64,000 bases of DNA. Source: Xenopus tropicalis (taxonomy: Eukaryota > Chordata > Amphibia > Anura > Pipidae). The stretch spans positions 35,515,712-35,579,711 of the forward strand of contig NC_030679.2 in assembly GCF_000004195.4 (NCBI RefSeq), written 5' to 3'. The notes under the pieces are model-generated. The model saw only the letters and a program-made list of their open reading frames with translations, had not been told where the DNA came from and made no database searches. Shown piece after piece: positions 5,836-63,597 of the stretch; the stretch's first letter is position 1; each line of letters begins with the position of its first letter. A program made the translations under genes and the position numbers.

Positions 5836-6115
5836 ACTTAAAAAGGGAAAGTCAGACTTTTTATTTCAGGCGGTTCAAGAACCTACTAGGAATGACTCTA
5901 TTTTGGACCTGGTGATTTCTAATAATAATGAACTCATCTCTAACTTTTGTGTGGGTGAGCATCTGGGGAACAGTGATCACAACATGGTCTCCTTTGAGAT
6001 AATGCTGCAGAGACAGCGCTATAAGGGAGTAACTAATACGCTTAATTTTAGACGTGCAGACTTTGCCAGTATAAGGGCATCTCTGCAATGTGTCAACTGG
6101 GAAAGGCTTTTCATG
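5836..6115 (+). pseudogene. LINE endonuclease C-terminal fragment
   Basis: The frame that starts near 5825 reads into an APE-type endonuclease C-terminus. It has an SDH motif (GNSDHNMVSFEI) around 5969-6003, the conserved histidine-containing end of this domain in CR1/L2 elements. Everything N-terminal of it is missing. The reading frame is lost around 6080-6115, and the RT continues in a different frame. It is not functional. Confidence 0.8.
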
Positions 6116-7800
6116 GGGTCGACACAGAAGGAAAATGGAACATCTTTAAAACATTGCTTTGCAGGTATACACAACAGTATATTCCCCTTGTAAGCAAGGA
6201 GAGGCATCGCAAAGCAAAACCTTTATGGCTGAATAAAAGTGTTAGTGTCGAGGTTGGTAAGAAAAAGTGTGCTTTTAAAGCATTCAAGTTAGCTGGGACA
6301 GCGGAAACTTTCATCAGGTACAAGGAAGCAAATAAAGCATGCAAAAAAGCTATCAAGCAAGCTAAAATAGAGATGGAAAGGGATATTGCAGCTAGGAGTA
6401 AAAAGAATCCAAAATTATTTTTTAATTATGTGAATAGTAAAAAAATGAAGCAAGAAGGGGTGGGAACCTTATTATCATGGGGGGGTAAGTTGGTTGATGA
6501 GAACGGGGAAAAAGCTGAAATTTTGAACTCTTATTTTTCATCTGTCTATACATCTGAGGAGCCAGATAATGAAGGCTTCCCTTTTAATATGCTCAGTTCT
6601 AGTAATTTAGCTACTGACGCATGGGTCACTCGGGAGGAAATTCAAAAGAGACTTGAACATGTAAAGGTAAACAAAGGTCCAGGACCGGATGGGATTCATC
6701 CCAGGGTATTAAATGAGCTGAGCGCTGTGATTGCCAAACCTCTTCACTTAATTTTTCAGGATTTATTGAGGTCTGGCATGGTGCCGAGAGACTGGCGGAT
6801 TGCTAATGTGGTGCCGTTATTTAAAAAGGGATCCCGTTCTCAGCCTGAAAACTATAGGTCTGTTAGTCTGACATCAGTAGTAGGAAAACTTTTGGAAGGG
6901 GTAATAAGGGATAGGGTACTTGAATACATTGCAGTTCACAATACTATTAGTTTGTGCCAGCATGGTTTTATGCGTAACAGATCTTGCCAGACTAATTTAG
7001 TTGCCTTTTATGAGGAGGTGAGCAGGAACCTTGATGCTGGAATGGACTTTGCTAAAGCGTTTGATACAGTACCTCACAGAAGGTTAATGATAAAATTAAG
7101 GAATATTGGCCTAGAACATAATATTTGTAATTGGATAGAGAACTGGCTGAAGGATAGAGTACAAAGAGTGGTGGTAAATGGAACATTTTCTAATTGGACC
7201 AGTGTGGTTAGTGGAGTACCGCAGGGGTCAGTCCTTGGTCCTTTGCTTTTTAACTTGTTTATTAATGACCTGGAGGTGGGCATAGACAGTACTGTTTCTA
7301 TTTTTGCTGATGCCACAAAATTGTGCAAAACGATAAGTTCCATGCAGGATGCTGCCGCTTTGCAGAGCGATTTGACAAAATTAGAAAACTGGGCAGCAAA
7401 CTGGAAAATGAGGTTCAATGTTAAGTGCAAAGTTATGTATTTTGGTAGGAATAATATAAACGCGAACTATCTACTGAATGGTAGTGTGTTGGGGGCATCC
7501 TTAATGGAGAAGGATCTGGGGGTTTTTGTTGATAACAAGTTGTCTAATTCCAGGCAGTGTCATTCTGTGGCTACTAAAGCAAATAAAGTGCTGTCTTGTA
7601 TAAAAAAGGGCATTGACTCAAGGGATGAGAACATAATTTTGCCCCTTTATAGGTCCCTGGTAAGGCCTCACCTTGAGTATGCAGTGCAGTTTTGGGCTCC
7701 AGTCCTTAAGAAGGATATTAATGAGCTGGAGAGAGTGCAGAGACTCGCAACTAAACTGGTAAAGGGGATGGAAGATTTAAACTATGAGGTTAGACTGTAG
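6088..7800 (+). pseudogene. LINE reverse transcriptase (L2/CR1 type), inactivated
   Basis: A 570-codon open stretch covering the linker and the RT fingers, palm and thumb. Visible RT landmarks include GPGPDGIHPR (about residues 195-204), a motif A block DFAKAFDTVPH, the GVPQGSVLGPLLF motif and motif C. Two defects stand out. Residues normally lying before motif A are missing in frame (NLDAGM runs straight into DFAKAFD). Motif C reads FADA instead of the FADD seen in the sister copy at 11481-12800, so one catalytic aspartate is gone. The copy cannot be an active polymerase. It ends at a TAG at 7798-7800 where the family normally reads on. Confidence 0.9.
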
Positions 7801-9410: not shown

Positions 9411-10957
9411 TTGCTTACTACACTTGTGAGCTTGTGGACACTAATCCAAGGCTGATTAGTCATTAATTCAGATTCTCATTACACGGCAGCTCTGAAACCA
9501 GTGCAATTTGCAATTTAGAATATATAATCAGCCCTTTGGCATCAGATTCTATGACAGACAAACTATATTTTCTGCTTAAATTGTGACACCCCTTAAGCTT
9601 AGCTTTGAACCAGCTACCCAGAGCTCACTGAGAGGTGCAAATGGGAAGTGTATGAGATCTAAAGAGGCCAATTTTATACAACTTTATGCACCAGCACATG
9701 TACCCCTGTGCATTCAAAATTATATTGTACAGCAAGCTAGATCTGACAATAACAGTTCACTGTAGGGCAATAATTCTATCATCCCTCCTCAAAACTGAGG
9801 GCTAATAATATGTGGAATTACACTGAGTAAGGTGGAACAATGGTTATTGTACTTGGAGGAATCAAGTCTATCGGAAATAAAATTTAGCAGAGACTTGGGA
9901 GTTTTAATCCATACTGTAATAAAGCAGAGGTATCTGAGTTAGTAAAAAAGCTTACAGTGAATGTGATCAATAAAGAAAATAAAAATTTGTAGTCGCAATC
10001 AACAAAAAGCTACATCATTAGTTCTTTGTAAGCTGGAGAAAAAAACATTGCCATAAATTGCTGTCCTCTTCTGAATGTAAAAAAAAAAAAAAAGAAATCA
10101 GGAGTGTTAAAAAAATAATCAGTGCTTGGCTACCTAGCAACAGAAATTCATTAGAAATTCACGTTACATTATAAACTTCCAATGCAATACATTTGCAGCT
10201 GTGAGTATAGGAATTAGGTATTGAACAGAAAATGTACAACCTATTTATTTATTATTTTGCTTTTTGACAAAAAAAACTTGAAAAAATAAATTTGGGTTAC
10301 ATTTTATATGGTTAATGAGCCCAAACTATTATCAAGGTCCACAGTGAAGGACAATTATTTTATTATGCAGAAACGGCAATAATGACTTGCATCAGTTTGT
10401 ATCCACTAATTAGGTCTGCATTAAGGCAAGTGACAACGATATTGCCACAAAGAAACCGGCTTTTAGCAGAAAGAGAAAATATAATCAAACTGGCTTAACA
10501 AAGATCCTATCCATATGGGTACATTAGCAAATGTCAGGTAAACACATCAGACTCCCACCTAGAACTGCACTACAGGACTACAGGCATGTACTTTCTGAGT
10601 TAATTTGGTAGCCCTATCCATGAACTATTGGAGTTAATTGTGTGAACAAGCTCTTTTATACCCTTTAGCAATCTGGCACTTAAACCCCTACTCATAATAA
10701 ATGTTTCATGCCCTGACCAATGTTCCGATCACAACACAGGTTGATTGCCACCATTAGTAAGAAGTGTCAGGATCCAACTGAAATTCAAATATGACAAATA
10801 CACGATCCTGACATTTGATCTGAGTCCGACCAGGGCCACTCCTGCCATGAACCTTCCCCCAGGTGGCAGTATGTAAAGTGATATTTGGCTTTTTTAGTGA
10901 TTCAAGAATAAGTCAAAAGTGTTGAGGAGACAAATAAACCAAATGGATTCGGGGAAC
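9411..10957. other. Intergenic DNA, nothing recognised
   Basis: AT-rich sequence with an A-run at 10079-10093. No coding similarity or element ends were found. Confidence 0.45.
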
Positions 10958-11068
10958 AAATTCCTTAAGGCTCCTAAAAAATCCATTTACATGGATTTAT
11001 CCTGTAGGCTAAAGCTCACCCACTGGGTTTTTAAGCAAAAGCTAGGATAATAGCTGATCAGATTTTTT
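10958..11068 (-). repeat. Diverged fragment of the hammerhead repeat (PLE-associated)
   Basis: The segment matches the part of the repeat unit that lies downstream of the ribozyme in the 38.5-40.3 kb cluster. Shared blocks include catttacatgg, tttatcctgtaggct, agctcacccactgggttt and aatagctgatcagat. It is more diverged than the 38.5 kb copies and the ribozyme core itself is not present. Its orientation is the same as the PLE at 12965-15010. Confidence 0.75.
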
Positions 11069-11760: not shown

Positions 11761-12378
11761 CTATCTCCCATAACCCTGTATTCCCTCACTTGCTAAGAAT
11801 CCATCCAGCCCGTTCTTAAAGCTATATAATGTATCAGCCAGCACGACTGATTCGGGGAGGGAATTCCACAACTTCACAACTCTCACAGTAAAAAATCCTT
11901 TCCGAATATTTGAATGGAACCTCCCTTCTTCTAAATGGAATGGGTGCCCTCTTGTCTGTTGGAAGGACCTACTGGTAAATAAAGCATTAGAGAGGTTATT
12001 ATATGATCCCCTTATATATTTATACATAGTTATCATGTCACCTCTTAAGCGCCTCTTCCCCAGTGTAAACAGACCCAACTTGGCCAGTCTTTCTTCATAA
12101 CTGAGACTTTCCATACCCTTTACCAGCTTAGTTGCCCTTCTCTGGACCCTCTCTAACTCAATCATGTCCCGTTTGAGCACTGGAGACCAGAACTGAACAG
12201 CATATTCTAGATGGGGCCTTACCAGCGCTCTGTAAAGGGGAAGAATAACCCCCTCCTCCCGTGAATCTATACCCCTTTTAATACAGCTCAAAACCTTGTT
12301 TGCCCTTGCAGCTGCTGCCTGGCATTGCTTGCTACTGTCAAGTTTATAATCTAGAAGGACTCCAAGGTCCTTCTCCAT
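11761..12378 (-). pseudogene. LINE RT thumb and C-terminal domain
   Basis: A 205-codon open stretch continuing the LINE protein after the frameshift. It starts at the conserved MEKDLGV block, contains RPHLEYAVQFWSPVLK and RRLRGDMITMYKY, and ends at a natural stop. Most of the frame is intact, so the copy is fairly young, but it is disconnected from motif C and cannot make a full enzyme. Confidence 0.85.
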
Positions 12379-12389
12379 TATGGATTTGC

Positions 12390-12800
12390 CTAGTGCAGTC
12401 CCATTAAGGGTATAAGTGACTGCATATTTTTACATCCCAGGTGCATGACCTTACATTTATCCATATTTAATCTCATCTGCCACTTAGCCGCCCAGATTGC
12501 CAGTTGGTCAAGATCCTGCTGCAAGGATGCCACATCCTGGATAGAATTGACTGGTCTGCAGAGTTTTGTGTCATCTGCAAACACTGATACATTACTCATA
12601 ATACCCTCCCCTAAGTCATTTATGAACAAATTAAACAAAAGTGGACCCAGTACAGAACCCTGAGGGACCCCACTGAGAACCTTACTCCAAGTAGAGAATG
12701 TACCATTAACAACCACCCTCTGTACCCAATCCTGTAGCCAGTTTTCTATCCATTTGCAAACGACTTCACTAAGACCAGTAGACCTTGCTTCTGTGAAGTT
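12390..12800 (-). pseudogene. LINE RT palm fragment
   Basis: Encodes the second half of the RT palm: a WIENWLQDWVQRVVVNGT block, then GVPQGSVLGPLLFNLFINDL and an intact motif C, FADDTKLC. A single-base frameshift near the A-run around 12427-12433 separates it from the C-terminal frame. The N-terminal RT and endonuclease are absent. Confidence 0.85.
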
Positions 12801-13140: not shown

Positions 13141-13500
13141 TCACCAATGCCATGTTTTATTCATTCCTAGGGGATTTTTAAACCCATTTGATAAAACTGC
13201 CCCTAAGAGTTTGACATCCAAGTAGTTTTTGTTCCATATTCTGCTGAACGTAAAATTTAACTCATTATTGTTTACAGAACCAATAAAATTTTCTGCACTC
13301 TTTATGTCTCCTTTCCAAATATACAGCAGATCATCTATATAGCATATGTAGAAGATGATGTTGTCTCTATATCTGTTGTTGGTCCACACATATGGATCTT
13401 TCCAACACACCATATAGATATTTGAATATGATGGAGTGAAATTACTGCCCATTGCAGTGCCTCTTAACTGTAAATAAAATAAGTCATCAAACTAATCAAA
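13141..13500 (-). pseudogene. PLE reverse transcriptase fragment
   Basis: In the minus frame, FDDLFYLQLRGTAMGSNFTPSYSN is followed by a motif C region with YIDDLLYIWKG. The AMGS-APxxAN and YIDD signatures together are typical of Penelope-like RTs rather than of L1/L2 LINEs. The rest of the palm upstream is too short for an intact enzyme and includes stops. Confidence 0.85.
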
Positions 13501-37308: not shown

Positions 37309-38512
37309 AAGGTATGTGCAAATGGAAGGAGGAGCAACTAAAGTTTGAGCTGTGCCCACATAGGGGTTGTACTGCTGTAGTCGCAATGCAGAGGTGCAGT
37401 AGTGACATCTTTGTGCTTCAGTTCTACTTCGTCTTATGCACACATTTAATTGGTCACTTAAAACCAACCACCATTGATACCACTCCCCACCCAACAGGAT
37501 TTTAAATACAGCAGGAACTCTGCTGCCAATCTGCAGTGAGAGTGAGAGGTCATTTGTCTTTTACAATCTTAAGTGGGCAAATTAATGACTGTAAATGAAA
37601 AAAGCAAGGTATAATGCCATTTTAATTTTGTGGAAAGTGGAATTTACATATACAGTAGCTATACGCCACCATCGTAGCAAAAAAAGTAACCTAAAAGCAC
37701 GGAAGCTTAATTGCCTGGGCTCTATTAAAGCTCTCATTGCATTTGTAATTACTTGTGAGCTGCAAAACATTTTTCAAAAAGTGAAGGGTGTAAATACTGT
37801 ATATTTTTCTTTAAAAAAAAAAAAAATCAGAGAAATCTGCAATTAGTTTCACTCCATTCAGTGCACCTTATTATGGCCATTTGGAAAGAATTGTTTCTAA
37901 TGAAACACTTAATGATACGAATGTAGGAATTACAGCATCATCACTATAAGCATCTGTTAAATGGGATTTATAAATGATGTTTAAGTGATAATAGTCATTT
38001 CCAGAAATGATGTGCCGTTTTAGCAAAAACAATGAGGCATTATTTTCGATTGCTGGCGATGCCGACTAAGTCCAATCTTGCCTTCAAGCAGAATACAAAA
38101 AGGAAAAGATATGTAAATTGAAAAGAAAAACCCTAATGGTGCCTTATTAAAATCCTATTTACACAGTATTAACATAAATATGAGTTTATAAACCATATGG
38201 TTCCACATCTGCTACTATGTATATTACAAGTCCTTTCCTAAATGTCTTCGCACACTTAAGTGCGATTTCAATATATAAATACCTGAATTTAAAGTTGTGT
38301 TATTTTTATGTTAAATCTGAAATCCTCATTTGTATGTTGTTTGTTTTTTAACATATCAATTAAAATGCATCATATGTCTCAGCATCAGTTGTAATGGCCA
38401 ATCTAGAGGAGAAACATTTAAATGTTAACTCAGTATTAATTTATACTTCTTCTTTCTATTATGAGTGGAGGGATTTTTTTTTTTTTAATCTGCATTTTTG
38501 TACATAAAGTAA
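37309..38512. other. AT-rich DNA, possible conserved non-coding sequence
   Basis: No repeat or coding signal from about 37860 to 38400. An A-run lies at 37814-37826. Confidence 0.35.
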
Positions 38513-38688
38513 AAAAATAAATAAGGTTGAGGAGACTGCCTCATACAGACAAAAGCAAACAAAAGGAATTCTGGGAATGAATTCCAAACTCTTAAAAAAA
38601 ATCCCATTTACATGGGTTTATCCTATAGGCTACAGCTCACCCACTGGGTTTGAAGCTGAAGCCCGAATAATAGCTGATCAGATTCCCA

Positions 38689-38710
38689 ACTACAGACCGG
38701 TTTCGCCTTT
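38689..38710 (-). ncRNA. Half hammerhead ribozyme, truncated
   Basis: The minus strand keeps the 3' half only: the stem II end GGC, GAAA, ACCGGTC and the TGTAGT arm. The CTGATGA half is replaced by the start of the 70-bp inverted arm (ggaattcattccc). The breakpoint falls inside stem II, so this copy cannot cleave by itself. Confidence 0.85.
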
Positions 38711-38825
38711 GGAATTCATTCCCAGAATTCCTTTTGTTTGCTTTTGTCTGTATGAGGCAGTCTCCTCAACCTTATTTATTTGTTTGTAGAACCACATGGT
38801 GACTCTACCTAAACTGATCAGAAAA

Positions 38826-38880
38826 CCCTGCACTACACTGATGAGCCTCAAAAAAGGCGAAACCGGTCTGTAGTTGGGAA
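38826..38880 (+). ncRNA. Hammerhead ribozyme, type I, short stem III (copy A)
   Basis: A self-cleaving RNA motif. Stem I pairs ACTACA (38832-38837) with TGTAGT (38869-38874). The invariant CTGATGA is at 38838-38844. Stem II is GCC/GGC (38845-38847, 38856-38858) with an A-rich loop. GAAA is at 38859-38862. Cleavage is expected after GTC at 38868. Stem III is only AC/GU around a CG, too short to close in a monomer, but ACCGGT is self-complementary, so two copies can pair as a dimeric hammerhead. This is the known behaviour of minimal hammerheads of PLEs and retrozymes. All core bases are present. Confidence 0.93.
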
Positions 38881-38989
38881 TCTGATCAGCTATTATTCGG
38901 GCTTCAGCTTCAAACCCAGTGGGTGAGCTGAAGCCTATAGGATAAACCCATGTAAATGGGATTTTTTTTAAGAGTTTGGGGCATCTTAG

Positions 38990-39690
38990 ACTGCATAACT
39001 TACCCTTTATAAGTGGTAATATTCAAAGCAAACTCCAAAATCACACTAATAACTGCAATAACTTGTTTCTGAATTACAGTATAAAATAGCAATTTGTACC
39101 TCTGAGCTCCCCATCATTACTGTACACTAACCTTGTAAGCCACGCAATTCTTTCTGTCCCTGAAAGACTTTGAGAGACTAATGAACACCAACTTGTTAAA
39201 TCTTCATTCTGTTTGATCTTTCTCCTATTTTTGATGCTGCTGAATCTGATCAATCTGTGCTTATTCAGGATCTCAACTCAGAGATGTTTCTCTGGGCAAC
39301 GTGAGCTAAACTTCCAATTTTGTACACCTTAGAACACACTTGGAACTCACAGGAGTGCACCTGTTCAGTTTATAGTGTTCTTCCCCTAAGCAATGCTTAA
39401 AGTATAGGGTAAAAGGGCAAAGTAAGGTCTCAGAATGCCTTGGATCTCTGTCTCTACTGAGCATGTGAAACACAGATGTATTATTCTCTTTTTACCTGCA
39501 GGACCAGTCTTTCAGTTTGTGTGTTAAATACGTCAACTGCCTTCATTCTTTACTCCATGGCGCTTCATGCTGGGCTCTCTTCATGTTCCCTACTGTCTTG
39601 GTTCTAATTTTATAGTAATTATTTCCTCCTGAATGGCAGTTTTTATCTAAAAATCGATTTAATAAACAAACTTTTTTTCAATTTCAATGT
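38990..39690. other. DNA between two hammerhead clusters, nothing recognised
   Basis: About 700 bp without repeat similarity to either side; short chance frames only. Confidence 0.4.
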
Positions 39691-39815
39691 AAATAAACAA
39701 AAGGAATTCTGGGAATGAATTCCAGAAAAAAATCCCATTTACATGGGTTTATCCTATAGGCTACAGCTCATCCACTGGGTTTGAAGCTGAAGCCAGGACA
39801 ATAGCTGATCAGATT

Positions 39816-39866
39816 CCCAACTACAGACCGGTTTCGCCCTTTCTGGGGCTCATCAGTGTAGTGCAG
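39816..39866 (-). ncRNA. Hammerhead ribozyme, type I, short stem III (copy C)
   Basis: On the minus strand: ACTACA complement of 39857-39862, CTGATGA complement of 39850-39856, stem II GCCC/GGGC, GAAA complement of 39832-39835, ACCGGT at 39827-39832, stem I partner at 39820-39825. Stem II is perfectly paired here, while copies A and B use other combinations. It faces copy B across the hairpin centre. Confidence 0.93.
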
Positions 39867-40045
39867 GGTTTTCTGATCAGCTTAGGTAGAGTCACCATGT
39901 GGTTCTACAAACAAATAAATAAGGTTGAGGAGACTGCCTCATACAGACAAAAGCAAACAAAAGGAATTCTGGGTGAGGCAGTCTCCTCAACCTTATTTAT
40001 TTGTTTGTAGAACCACATGGTGACTCTACCTAAGCTGATCAGAAA

Positions 40046-40100
40046 ACCCTGCACTACACTGATGAGCCTCCAATAAGGGCGAAACCGGTCTGTAGTTGGG
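40046..40100 (+). ncRNA. Hammerhead ribozyme, type I, short stem III (copy B)
   Basis: Same architecture as copy A: ACTACA at 40053-40058, CTGATGA at 40059-40065, stem II GCCT/GGGC, GAAA at 40081-40084, ACCGGTC, expected cleavage after 40090, TGTAGT at 40091-40096. The stem II sequence differs from copy A by changes that keep pairing. Confidence 0.93.
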
Positions 40101-40534
40101 AATCTGATCAGCTATTGTCCTGGCTTCAGCTTCAAACCCAGTGGGTGAGCTGTAGCCTATAGGATAAACCCATGTAAATGGGATTTTTTTTAAGAGTCTG
40201 GAATTCATTCCCAGAATTCCTTTTGCTTGCTTTTGTCTGTGTGAGGCAGTCTCCTCAACCTTATTTATTTGAATGTAAATAAACTACACTCTCTCTATTG
40301 GCATTGATAAAGACTTGCCCTTGATTACATCCTTTTTGGCAGCATCAACCCCATCTCTCACAAACCCACATGGGGTCCCTTCTCCTTAGATTGCTACACC
40401 CCTCCCCCTCTACAAATGTATATAATTCAAATGTATACTGGACTTTACCCATCTAGTATGTAAACTCCTAAGAACAGAGAACACACTCCAGATGTTTTAT
40501 TTTTGACAACTATGGTAGTGTAAATAACCATATA

Positions 40535-56222: not shown

Positions 56223-57828
56223 CAGTGGCTTGCAAAAGTATTCGGCCCCCTTGAACTTTTCCACATTTTGTCACATTACAGCCACAAACATGAATCAATT
56301 TTATTGGAATTCCATGTGAAAGACCAATACAAAGTGGTGTACACGTGAGAAGTGGAACGAAAATCATACATGATTCAAAACATTTTTTACAAATAAATAA
56401 CTGCAAAGTGGGGTGTGCGTAATTATTCAGCCCCCTGAGTCAATACTTTGTAGAACCACCTTTTGCTGCAATTACAGCTGCCAGTCTTTTAGGGTATGTC
56501 TCTACCAGCTTTGCACATCTACAGACTGAAATCCTTGCCCATTCTTCTTTGCAAAACAGCTCCAGCTCAGTCAGATTAGATGGACAGCGTTTGTGAACAG
56601 CAGTTTTCAGATCTTGCCACAGATTCTCCATTGGATTTAGATCTGGACTTTGACTGGGCCATTCTAACACATGGATATGTTTTGTTTTAAACCATTCCAT
56701 TGTTACCCTGGCTTTATGTTTAGGGTCGTTGTCCTGCCGGAAGGTGAACCTCCGCCCCAGTCTCAAGTCTTTTGCAGACTCCAAGAGGTTTTCTTCCAAG
56801 ATTGCCCTGTATTTGGCTCCATCCATCTTCCCATCAACTCTGACCAGCTTCCCTGTCCCTGCTGAAGAGAAGCCCCCCCAGAGCATGATGCTGCCACCAC
56901 CATATTTGACAGTGGGGATGGTGTGTTCAGAGTGATGTGCAGTGTTAGTTTTCCGCCACACATAGCGTTTTGCATTTTGGCCAAAAAGTTCCATTTTGGT
57001 CTCATCTGACCAGAGCACCTTCTTCCACATGTTTGCTGTGTCCCCCACATGGCTTGTGGCAAACTGCAAACGGGACTTCTTATGGTTTTCTGTTAACAAT
57101 GGCTTTCTTCTTGCCACTCTTCCATAAAGGCCAACTTTGTGCAGTGCACGACTAATAGTTGTCCTATGGACAGATTCCCCCACCTGAGCTGTAGATCTCT
57201 GCAGCTCGTCCAGAGTCACCATGGGCCTCTTGGCTGCATTTCTGATCAGCGCTCTCCTTGTTCGGCCTGTGAGTTTAGGTGGACAGCCTTTTCTTGGTAG
57301 GTTTACAGTTGTGCCATACTCCTTCCATTTCTGAATGATCACTTGAACAGTGCTCCGTGGGATGTTCAAGACTTTGGGAATCTTTTTGTAGCCTAAGCCT
57401 GCTTTAAATTTCTCAATAACTTTATCCCTGACCTGTCTGGTGTGTTCTTTGGACTTCATGGTGTTGTTGCTCCCAATATTCTCTTAGACAACCTCTGAGG
57501 CTGTCACAGAGCAGCTGTATTTGTACTGACATTAGATTACACACAGTTGCACTCTATTTAGTCATTAGCACTCATCAGGCAATGTCTATGGGCAACTGAC
57601 TGCACTCAGACCAAAGGGGGCTGAATAATTACGCACACCCCACTTTGCAGTTATTTATTTGTAAAAAATGTTTGGAATCATGTATGATTTTCCTTCCACT
57701 TCTCACGTGTACACCACTTTGTATTGGTCTTTCACGTGGAATTCCAATAAAATTGATTCATGTTTGTGGCTGTAATGTAACAAAATGTGGAAAAGTTCAA
57801 GGGGGCAGAATACTTTTGCAAGCCACTG
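56223..57828 (-). mobile_element. Complete Tc1-type transposon (IR/DR group)
   Basis: A 1606-bp element flanked by TA on both sides. The terminal inverted repeats (56223-56436 and 57615-57828, about 214 bp) start CAGTGGCTTGCAAAAGTATT and differ at roughly five positions by eye. Each repeat has an outer (tattcggcccccttga) and an inner (ttattcagccccct) direct repeat, the IR/DR arrangement of Sleeping Beauty-like elements. One uninterrupted transposase gene lies between. Near-identical ends plus an open gene mean recent movement. Confidence 0.95.
56440..57459 (-). CDS. Tc1/mariner transposase, apparently intact DD34E
   Basis: A 339-residue transposase of the usual Tc1 length. Residues 1-110 form the paired-like DNA-binding region with two helix-turn-helix units, joined by a GRPP-like CPPKLTGRTRR linker near residues 59-69. 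The catalytic triad is D152 (WSDETK), D243 (RQDNDPKH) and E278 (NPMENLW), with 34 residues between the last two, i.e. DD34E. A glycine-rich box (KYGGGSIMLWGGF) lies at residues 185-197. The enzyme excises and reinserts the element at TA dinucleotides in the nucleus. The start ATG at 57459 gives MKSKEHTRQVRDK, matching the family N-terminus. No stop or frameshift is seen; whether it is active cannot be judged from sequence alone. Confidence 0.95.
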   Translation of the reverse strand: MKSKEHTRQVRDKVIEKFKAGLGYKKIPKVLNIPRSTVQVIIQKWKEYGTTVNLPRKGCPPKLTGRTRRALIRNAAKRPMVTLDELQRSTAQVGESVHRTTISRALHKVGLYGRVARRKPLLTENHKKSRLQFATSHVGDTANMWKKVLWSDETKMELFGQNAKRYVWRKTNTAHHSEHTIPTVKYGGGSIMLWGGFSSAGTGKLVRVDGKMDGAKYRAILEENLLESAKDLRLGRRFTFRQDNDPKHKARVTMEWFKTKHIHVLEWPSQSPDLNPMENLWQDLKTAVHKRCPSNLTELELFCKEEWARISVCRCAKLVETYPKRLAAVIAAKGGSTKY

Positions 57829-61937: not shown

Positions 61938-63332
61938 TTATGCACCCAAAGGGTTAACAGTACCTGAATTAAAAGTACACCAATTTTCACAGTCACTAAT
62001 TGTTGGAAAGTTTCCATAGTGGTTCATACTTTCCATGTTTTCCAAAGTACCTAGCACACAACCATTATCTTTAACTTCTGTAAGTTGTGCATTATGGTCT
62101 TGGCAAAACAGGCTACTTAAATCATATGTATCTGACTCATCTAGTACATCAGAAGTATGTCTTTCTGTATCATGATTTTGTGTCCCGTATTTACTATGTT
62201 TCTGCTTTTTAAATACATCAGAATAACCAGAGACTATGGCTATTTTACAGTTTTCCCCAGTGTGCTCAGTTTGAGTAGATTTGATTACTTTTAAAGGAAC
62301 ATTAGAAAGATGCAAACATCTTTCTTGTAAATCATTTAATTCTTTTTTACATTTTACCATTTCTGCATGGCATGTATTATATTTACCAATTGCATCTATA
62401 TGGGACAATTGTAGTGCACTGGTGGTCTGTTGCAAAGCAATATTTTGAGCCTGTAAAGAACTTATTCCATTTCTGAGAGAATTAATTTTGGTTTGTAATT
62501 CAATTTCTCTCAGAACGTGTTTCCTGTGTTCTGTCTTTAGGGCATTATCTAGGGTGTGTACTTTAAAAGCCAGTGTTTGGTATGTATAACACTGAGATTC
62601 TGTTTGCATATTCCTGTTAGGGGCATGTCTTTGGGCACTGTTTATGTTTGTTACCTTACTTTGGATATTGTCATTGTAATGACTACTTTCTTTGTTTATA
62701 ACAGAGATACAAGGGTTTACATGGAAGGAATTTCCAGTTGCACCTAGTTTATTTATACCTCCATTTCTTGATCTTAAAGGCTTACGTTTCTGTAAAACAT
62801 TGAAACACCGCTGCATTAATACAATAATCTCATCATAAGCATGTGTTTGGGGGTCTATTAGAAATCCACATTTTGCCTTAATTTTTGGATGAGCATTGCA
62901 AATTAACAAATTCTTGTATTCAGAGTCATCTCTGTTTCCAGTTCTGCCTTTACCAATGTGGTAAGTTGCCCATAACCTGTTAGCAAAAACCAATGGATTC
63001 TCATTTTGTCTCTGCTTTGTTTTGTATGCAGCCATAAAGCCTATATCAAATGGATGCAATATTTTAAGTAATTCATCCACTTTTTCATCATAATTTCCTT
63101 TGCCTTCTTTAATACTGTCTGATAAGCACTGCCATGTGGACATTTCTACTGTCAAAAGTAAAACTTTCACCTGGTCAGTGGGGTTTGTAATGCCAAACAA
63201 TTTGCATCTCTGCAGGACAGTAACTGCATGGAAAGTAATATGTACTTCAGGCTTTAATTTACCAATATCATTTGCTACAAGTAACAAAGTCTTCAAAGAC
63301 TGTTTATCCTCACTGCAATACAAATCATCCAT
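61938..63332 (-). CDS. Gag-like structural protein of an LTR retroelement
   Basis: An intact 464-residue frame directly downstream of the leader, where gag sits in LTR elements. The N-terminal 190 residues look like a helical capsid region. Residues 107-120 match the retroviral major homology region in spacing: Q107, E111, F116, R119, L120. A long coiled coil spans about residues 252-343 (heptads with KINSLRNGISSLQAQNIAL). No CCHC zinc knuckle is visible. The protein ends in an acidic region and a TAA stop. It would assemble particles that package the element's RNA. There is no protease or RT reading frame after it. An alternative is a domesticated gag, but the surrounding LTRs make an element the simpler reading. 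Confidence 0.85.
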   Translation of the reverse strand: MDDLYCSEDKQSLKTLLLVANDIGKLKPEVHITFHAVTVLQRCKLFGITNPTDQVKVLLLTVEMSTWQCLSDSIKEGKGNYDEKVDELLKILHPFDIGFMAAYKTKQRQNENPLVFANRLWATYHIGKGRTGNRDDSEYKNLLICNAHPKIKAKCGFLIDPQTHAYDEIIVLMQRCFNVLQKRKPLRSRNGGINKLGATGNSFHVNPCISVINKESSHYNDNIQSKVTNINSAQRHAPNRNMQTESQCYTYQTLAFKVHTLDNALKTEHRKHVLREIELQTKINSLRNGISSLQAQNIALQQTTSALQLSHIDAIGKYNTCHAEMVKCKKELNDLQERCLHLSNVPLKVIKSTQTEHTGENCKIAIVSGYSDVFKKQKHSKYGTQNHDTERHTSDVLDESDTYDLSSLFCQDHNAQLTEVKDNGCVLGTLENMESMNHYGNFPTISDCENWCTFNSGTVNPLGA

Positions 63333-63597
63333 GTTCTAATAACTATTCTTTAGCACAGACCCAAGGCAAAATATAGTAAAATTTGAGATTATGGCAAACT
63401 AAGCAGATCATTTTCATTACAAATTGTGCGGCATAAGTACGCAATTTCCAAATAAGCCTTCATTTACTATTGCTGAATGCAAACTTCTACCCACGATTTT
63501 CTATATTTTTAAAGTGGACCTAAAATAGTCACCACTTCTTATAGATTGTGCCTATATTAGTAAATATACATATTTTGATAGAGACTATCTGTTTTAT

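Follow-up and report, generated by a model that had tools for sequence, protein, structure and literature searches.

The opposed hammerhead-bearing units in a 64,000-nucleotide stretch of Xenopus tropicalis DNA, the whole of which we call the window, are two twin-primed insertions (38511-38979 and 39699-40271) of an amphibian non-LTR retrozyme, a non-coding member of that class with clear boundaries and a unit of about 250-290 bp. We think it quite probable that a Penelope-like element (PLE) supplied the protein that integrated the RNA of this retrozyme, which carries a type I hammerhead predicted to cut as a dimer. LINEs or PLEs are the candidates named in the available sections of two papers (PMC7229834, PMC11722881) for the enzyme that copies animal retrozymes into DNA. 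The scars left by insertion provide a direct test of the mobiliser from sequence only, and in the frog they match a signature that has been tied biochemically to PLEs.

Three type I hammerheads in two head-to-head insertions

The core pattern CTGATGAGN6-30CGAAAC was matched exactly three times in the 64-kb window and not at all in 100 dinucleotide shuffles of it, bearing out the three type I hammerheads proposed in the initial annotation, and the three are confirmed as genuine. Hammerhead 1 (38814-38889, plus strand) is of type I with an extended stem I, its core lying at 38838-38863 and its implied cleavage site between 38868 and 38869. Hammerhead 2 (39805-39880, minus strand; core 39831-39856) has its implied cleavage between 39826 and 39825, and hammerhead 3 (40035-40111, plus strand; core 40059-40085) between 40090 and 40091, the two plus-strand phosphates being those that had been named at the outset. 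All three are built from the same elements, with ACTACA/TGTAGT as stem I, GCCY/RGGC as stem II and the self-complementary ACCGGU as stem III. By alignment, stem I does not stop at ACTACA/TGTAGT but goes on to an internal loop with CCC/GGG and, beyond that, a palindromic pair, CTGATCAG/CTGATCAG, so that the hammerheads had been placed correctly by the initial annotation but drawn too short; a minimal, PLE-type stem I for the retrozyme was rejected in favour of this extended type I stem.

The covariance-model search that had been suggested as a check gave a divided answer. When the 2-kb stretch was scanned by E value, each of the three hammerheads matched Hammerhead_HH9, with scores of 32.8, 32.1 and 25.3 bits (E values of 7e-6, 1e-5 and 2e-3), but none of these reaches the gathering score of 52. 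At the gathering threshold, nothing in Rfam matched in the 64-kb window and no hammerhead was matched in 20 further loci of the retrozyme family. MicroRNA matches in the 2-kb E-value scan were judged to be artefacts of the long inverted repeats.

What had been described as a single cluster resolves into two independent insertions, separated by about 0.7 kb, and both are head-to-head pairs with inverted arms that are 96-99% complementary. Insertion 2 consists of a minus-strand arm (39699-39973) whose outer 3' end, on the left, is at site A and a plus-strand arm (39974-40271) whose outer 3' end, on the right, is at site B (sites A and B are defined below), and it is flanked by an intact 13-bp target-site duplication, AATGTAAATAAAC, with its left copy at 39686-39698 and its right copy at 40272-40284. 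The two arms differ in their stem II loops (GCCCCAGAAAGGGC and GCCTCCAATAAGGGC), which suggests that they were copied from two RNA templates. Insertion 1 has a minus-strand arm (38511-38710), in which a fourth hammerhead is reduced to its 3' part (GGCGAAACCGGTCT), and a plus-strand arm (38711-38979) that carries hammerhead 1. Its left end is at site B and its right end fails to reach the usual site A by about 25 nt, and no target-site duplication was found around 38511-38979; because of these two features insertion 1 is either an exception to the pairing of one A with one B end described below or has lost an edge.

Elsewhere in the window there is a degenerate retrozyme fragment on the minus strand (10931-11064; consensus 42-177, 89% identity) without a hammerhead core. 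Two LINE-like reverse-transcriptase remnants were recognised, one on the plus strand at 6052-7800 (RVT_1, E 9e-27) and one, by eye, on the minus strand at 11761-12800, where 11761-12429 had no Pfam match. A minus-strand frame of 347 aa at 56440-57483 encodes domains of a Sleeping Beauty/Tc1-type transposase (HTH_SB, Tc3 HTH, DDE_3), and another of 465 aa at 61938-63335, also on the minus strand, is gag-like by eye and had no Pfam match.

A dispersed, non-coding family

Across the assembly of 1,451,301,209 bp the core pattern gave 865 matches (424 + 441), compared with 80 (40 + 40) for the reversed pattern. Among the 100 matches listed, 87 belong to the retrozyme family by their stem II and the other 13 are without the family stem II; 85 of the 87 were taken in (C1:137837192 and C1:146192148 were left out) and, together with the three of the window, make up a set of 88 copies. 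All loci come from a single species and, apart from the window, from its chromosome C1; L005 and L006, duplicates of L004, were excluded from the counts. Head-to-tail monomers measured 253-292 bp in the 14 examined, with a GC content of 40.3-46.2% (mean 43.6%) and an identity of 97.9% between the closest pair, and head-to-tail arrays ran from dimers up to a tetramer, the longest in the sample (L014) having four hammerheads. In 38511-40271 the longest ATG open reading frame is of 70 aa, and neither a reverse transcriptase nor a GIY-YIG endonuclease is encoded. The initial annotation had reported no reverse transcriptase within the cluster and had called the repeat non-autonomous, and both statements hold for the retrozyme-like unit of about 250-290 bp.

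An octamer-like ATGTAAAT occurs at q113-120 of the retrozyme consensus and an exact ATTTGCAT at q173-180; we take the octamer-type sequence to be a snRNA-type enhancer motif, and the two could be parts of a promoter. In a single case (L023, 1443-1591) a hammerhead piece breaks off 5 nt beyond the cleavage site and runs straight into a U4 snRNA-like copy at its 5' end (Rfam U4, 47 bits, model 1-138), forming a template-jump chimera.

Pairing and predicted folding of the hammerheads

The covariation alignment of the 88 copies held 74 distinct rows, in which 94.2% of the cells paired, falling to 22-39% after the 3' side was slid; re-dealing the 3' letters among the rows left 93.3% paired. More than one compensatory row was seen at a sole pair (C-G in 48 rows, U-A in 20, U-G in 4 and other combinations in 2), and 2 pairs were changed on both sides, compared with 2.1 in shuffles. 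The stem II sequences do differ between copies and still pair, as the initial annotation had observed, but the covariation that it read from this is less strong than it had implied, at only one such pair. Covariation of stem II among these close relatives is weak, and there is no strong signal because the hammerhead copies are too alike.

Co-folding of two hammerhead copies gave a predicted energy of -36.1 kcal/mol, compared with twice -16.5 kcal/mol for single copies. The predicted co-fold is a double hammerhead with the core bases unpaired and stem III formed between the molecules, and in the predicted fold of a single copy the core bases are paired. This agrees with the suggestion, made from the letters of ACCGGU at the outset, that a self-complementary stem III would suit a dimer. 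Circular folds predicted for 14 monomers were 53-67% paired (z of -0.5 to -5.2).

Insertion ends fall at two internal sites

We mapped 72 retrozyme insertions on C1 and in the window, setting their boundaries by alignment to 15 references. Of the 106 RNA-3' ends, 98 fell at site A (consensus 150-190; 56 ends) or site B (consensus 195-228; 42 ends), which lie about 45 nt apart and whose bins together cover 75 of the 271 unit positions, and 8 fell elsewhere. Both sites are internal and U-rich and there is no common poly-A tail; where an L1-type SINE would have a common 3' tail, in most cases of poly-A, and a single start site, this element has two internal U-rich sites. Within 3 nt of the cleavage site there were none of the 106 3' ends and one of 106 5' ends. 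As the cleavage site is nearly free of ends, cleaved linear monomers are not the usual template, and circles or uncut multimers would fit.

The order of copies was equally constrained, with 34 of the 72 insertions running minus-then-plus (head-to-head), 38 in a single orientation and none plus-then-minus (tail-to-tail), and the 3' ends of the head-to-head pairs always pointed outward (34/34). Of the 72 insertions, 28 were flanked by an exact target-site duplication (8 bp or longer), compared with 2.2% in flank-permuted controls, and the other 44 were without one; the duplications measured 8-20 bp with a median of 13 bp (26 of the 28, L015 and L038 being left out). Head-to-head insertions accounted for 21 of the 28 with such a duplication, and all 21 had one A and one B end, which has a probability of 5e-7 under equal odds for A and B. 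Without this filter, 27 of the 34 head-to-head insertions were A/B, 2 were A/A, 2 were B/B and 3 had an off-site end, so that seven, insertion 1 included, break the A/B rule. Arm lengths and 5' junctions varied among insertions.

At 49 3' ends, the target bases were 41.7% identical to the continuation of the element, compared with 29.4 +/- 1.9% after permutation, indicating microhomology at the 3' ends (for 5' ends with duplications n=5). The bases that follow the cut at retrozyme targets are A-rich. In 3 of 23 insertions (L010, L028, L052) the two arms were less alike than their median match to other insertions, as would be expected if some insertions were primed on a separate RNA molecule for each strand; against this, the partner arm was the best match in 6 of 23. 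Arm similarity is only suggestive here, as a younger third copy can mimic the pattern.

Penelope-like elements of the same genome

The window itself holds a PLE reverse transcriptase fragment (13141-13491, minus strand), which is 28-47% identical to PLE proteins and had no Pfam match alone. A protein search with this fragment gave 2842 candidates, of which 150 were scored; among these 150 we read at least 14 minus-then-plus pairs within 7 kb from the list and no plus-then-minus pair within that distance, the nearest noticed being 9.3 kb apart on C9. Thirteen pairs were examined, namely 12 of the 14 (L069 and 11 others, with C5:41384947 and C8:143191046 left out) and L103; being selected as head-to-head, they do not give the frequency of this layout in PLEs. 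Twelve of the 13 had a duplication of 13-17 bp and two unlike ends, of which one lay at a site A' and one was extended by a tail of 91-291 nt, and the exception, L086/L082, was without a resolved duplication; the PLE duplications were sought in wide windows, where shorter repeats (9-13 bp) were also found, the permuted control covering retrozyme flanks only.

Pfam recognised reverse transcriptase or GIY-YIG domains in L069, L071 and L103 and, below cut-off, in L070. Downstream of the PLE open reading frame, six PLEs (L083/L087, L084/L088, L089/L090, L091/L092, L070 and L078) carry a hammerhead-like motif of the minimal type (CTGAGGAAG..GCACGCGAAACGCGT or similar) with a palindromic ACGCGT; it lies 381-472 nt before A' in the four PLEs that allowed the measurement. 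The head-to-head arms of L069 and the 11 other pairs are 98.5-100% identical over about 190-2500 bases, and because of this identity several frog PLE families look recently active. A PDB search with a PLE protein gave no match. One PLE of the frog genome is 100% identical over 69 aa to the X. tropicalis protein XP_017946141.1. A GIY-YIG fragment (L106), which we take to be of the Penelope/Poseidon type, is also present in the frog genome.

Between the 15 retrozyme references and 38 PLE loci, many of them partial, no nucleotide similarity was found at E <= 0.01; weaker matches were rejected as being at chance level, and a hairpin likeness seen near A and A' was too weak to be kept. The bases after the cut are C/T-rich in the PLEs (11 insertions, families pooled), in contrast to the A-rich bases of the retrozyme. 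Since tail, base preference and microhomology differ and no sequence similarity was found in the 38 loci, the partner of the retrozyme may lie outside the PLE families sampled, and the short tail and AT-rich cutting of the retrozyme appear to fit the Penelope/Poseidon type better.

The mobiliser of the retrozyme

The shared order of hammerhead, A and B, the A/B rule, the head-to-head layout and the similar length of the duplications make a PLE enzyme the likeliest mobiliser, and the Penelope connection drawn in the initial annotation is supported by the two internal sites, the layout and the duplications. That PLEs are the mobilisers of animal retrozymes, with both strands of a staggered cut primed, one per fixed internal site and partly on two RNAs, seems to us rather likely.

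It is unlikely that an L1-like LINE mobilises the retrozyme and that its head-to-head copies are the products of ordinary twin priming. A LINE-like reverse transcriptase is at hand in the window (RVT_1, E 9e-27), and twin priming and duplications of similar size are known from L1. U6-L1 chimeras, which the join of hammerhead and U4 in L023 resembles, arise by LINE template jumping, and the microhomology at retrozyme 3' ends is usual for LINEs. However, there is no common poly-A tail, 98 of the 106 3' ends are at two internal sites, and head-to-head insertions end at such sites on both sides, with A paired to B in all 21 that have duplications; these features speak against a LINE.

Satellite DNA of the newt type, spread by unequal crossing-over without retrotransposition, shares with the frog element a related type of hammerhead, tandem monomers and an amphibian host, but the dispersal of copies with target-site duplications, and arrays that in our sample reach only four hammerheads (L014), make this explanation very unlikely. 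A foldback or MITE-like DNA transposon, with a hammerhead by chance in its terminal inverted repeats, would account for target-site duplications and for the length of the inverted arms, which in the window are 96-99% complementary. We regard it as most improbable, given that the duplications vary from 8 to 20 bp, that 38 of the 72 insertions are in a single orientation without an inverted arm, that arm lengths and 5' junctions are variable, that head-to-tail dimers to a tetramer exist, and that the outer ends are unlike sites, A and B. A motif without any past as a ribozyme, due to chance or decay, which could be argued from the unmet Rfam gathering threshold in the window and 20 further loci and from the small effect of shuffling 3' letters among closely related copies (93.3 vs 94.2% paired), is of negligible probability against 865 genome-wide matches compared with 80 reversed, the drop in pairing to 22-39% once one side is slid and the HH9 match at E 7e-6.

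Under integration by a PLE protein, tandem retrozyme copies would be transcribed, and pairs of hammerheads would cut the multimers into monomers, which a host ligase may circularise, as judged from published work in the axolotl. The putative PLE enzyme, a reverse transcriptase with a GIY-YIG endonuclease, would bind the retrozyme RNA and make staggered cuts in A-rich DNA, spaced by the roughly 8-20 bp of the observed duplications. Each target strand would then prime inside the RNA rather than at its end, mostly with site A used by one strand and site B, which lies about 45 nt downstream, by the other; these are the sites at which the 3' ends are observed. Synthesis on both strands would yield the layout that we see, in which copies face each other, have variable 5' junctions and are flanked by a target-site duplication, and the reading through of the hammerhead in tandem copies would point to a circular or uncut multimeric template. 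Integration by a PLE predicts that reverse transcription starts at A and B on the retrozyme RNA; should it apply to newts, corals and mussels as well, it would account for the spread of tiny ribozyme-bearing RNAs through animal genomes.

Comparison with known systems

The hammerhead of newt satellite 2 has a weak stem III and is thought to act as a dimer. By description, the frog element resembles it in these two respects and in its amphibian host, and differs from it in forming dispersed copies and short arrays rather than satellite DNA.

Closer in kind are the non-LTR retrozymes. The frog element has a tandem unit within the 150-450 bp, a GC content below the 45-50% and duplications above the 4 bp by which these are recognised. 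As described in the available sections of Cervera & de la Pena 2020 (PMC7229834), the axolotl elements Rtz_331/HHR_Amex1 are likewise non-coding, occur as tandem copies of a 170-400 nt unit and have a type I hammerhead suited to dimers, and non-LTR retrozymes share a stem III of one A-U pair and a palindromic tetraloop, which in the frog is CCGG. The same sections count 126,247 hammerhead motifs in the axolotl, whereas the frog has hundreds of intact-core matches; they hold no description of head-to-head insertions, two fixed 3' sites or the A/B rule, and the word 'Xenopus' does not occur in the text of the paper. There PLEs are 'a strong candidate' for the partner of animal retrozymes, and in the corresponding part of a 2024 review the partner is given as 'LINEs or' PLEs (PMC11722881).

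Hammerheads in interspersed repeats of X. tropicalis, similar to the human C10/RECK intron hammerheads, are already in print (Perreault 2011, PMC3088659, available sections). Judged by that description and by the best match to HH9, these repeats are probably the same family, and the sections in question are silent on the unit and its boundaries, on duplications and on a mobilising partner. As we found no description of the A/B rule or of head-to-head insertion for any retrozyme in the parts of the open-licence PMC literature covered, it is the mode of integration that appears to be new.

For PLEs, the protein was found in vitro to cut and extend both target strands, with reverse transcription starting at two adjacent internal sites of the RNA, the sequence between which becomes a genomic 'tail', a signature termed unique to PLEs (Frangieh 2024, PMC11167929). 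In that work the start site is not homologous to the cut DNA, unlike the retrozyme with microhomology at its 3' ends, and the Penelope/Poseidon type has a tail of 30-40 bp and a preference for AT. The tails of the frog PLEs, at 91-291 nt, are longer than the approximately 45 nt of the retrozyme, which further differs from PLEs in lacking a gene for reverse transcriptase and GIY-YIG endonuclease and in having an extended rather than a minimal, PLE-type hammerhead. In the available sections on the Penelope of Adineta (PMC3846280), inverted pLTRs are described with duplications of 8-10 bp and an optional tail of 31 bp. The retrozyme has in common with the PLEs of Anolis (Poseidon), Adineta (Penelope) and the frog its head-to-head copies with target-site duplications and, as in PLEs, two adjacent internal start sites, an optional tail at one end and a hammerhead upstream of them.
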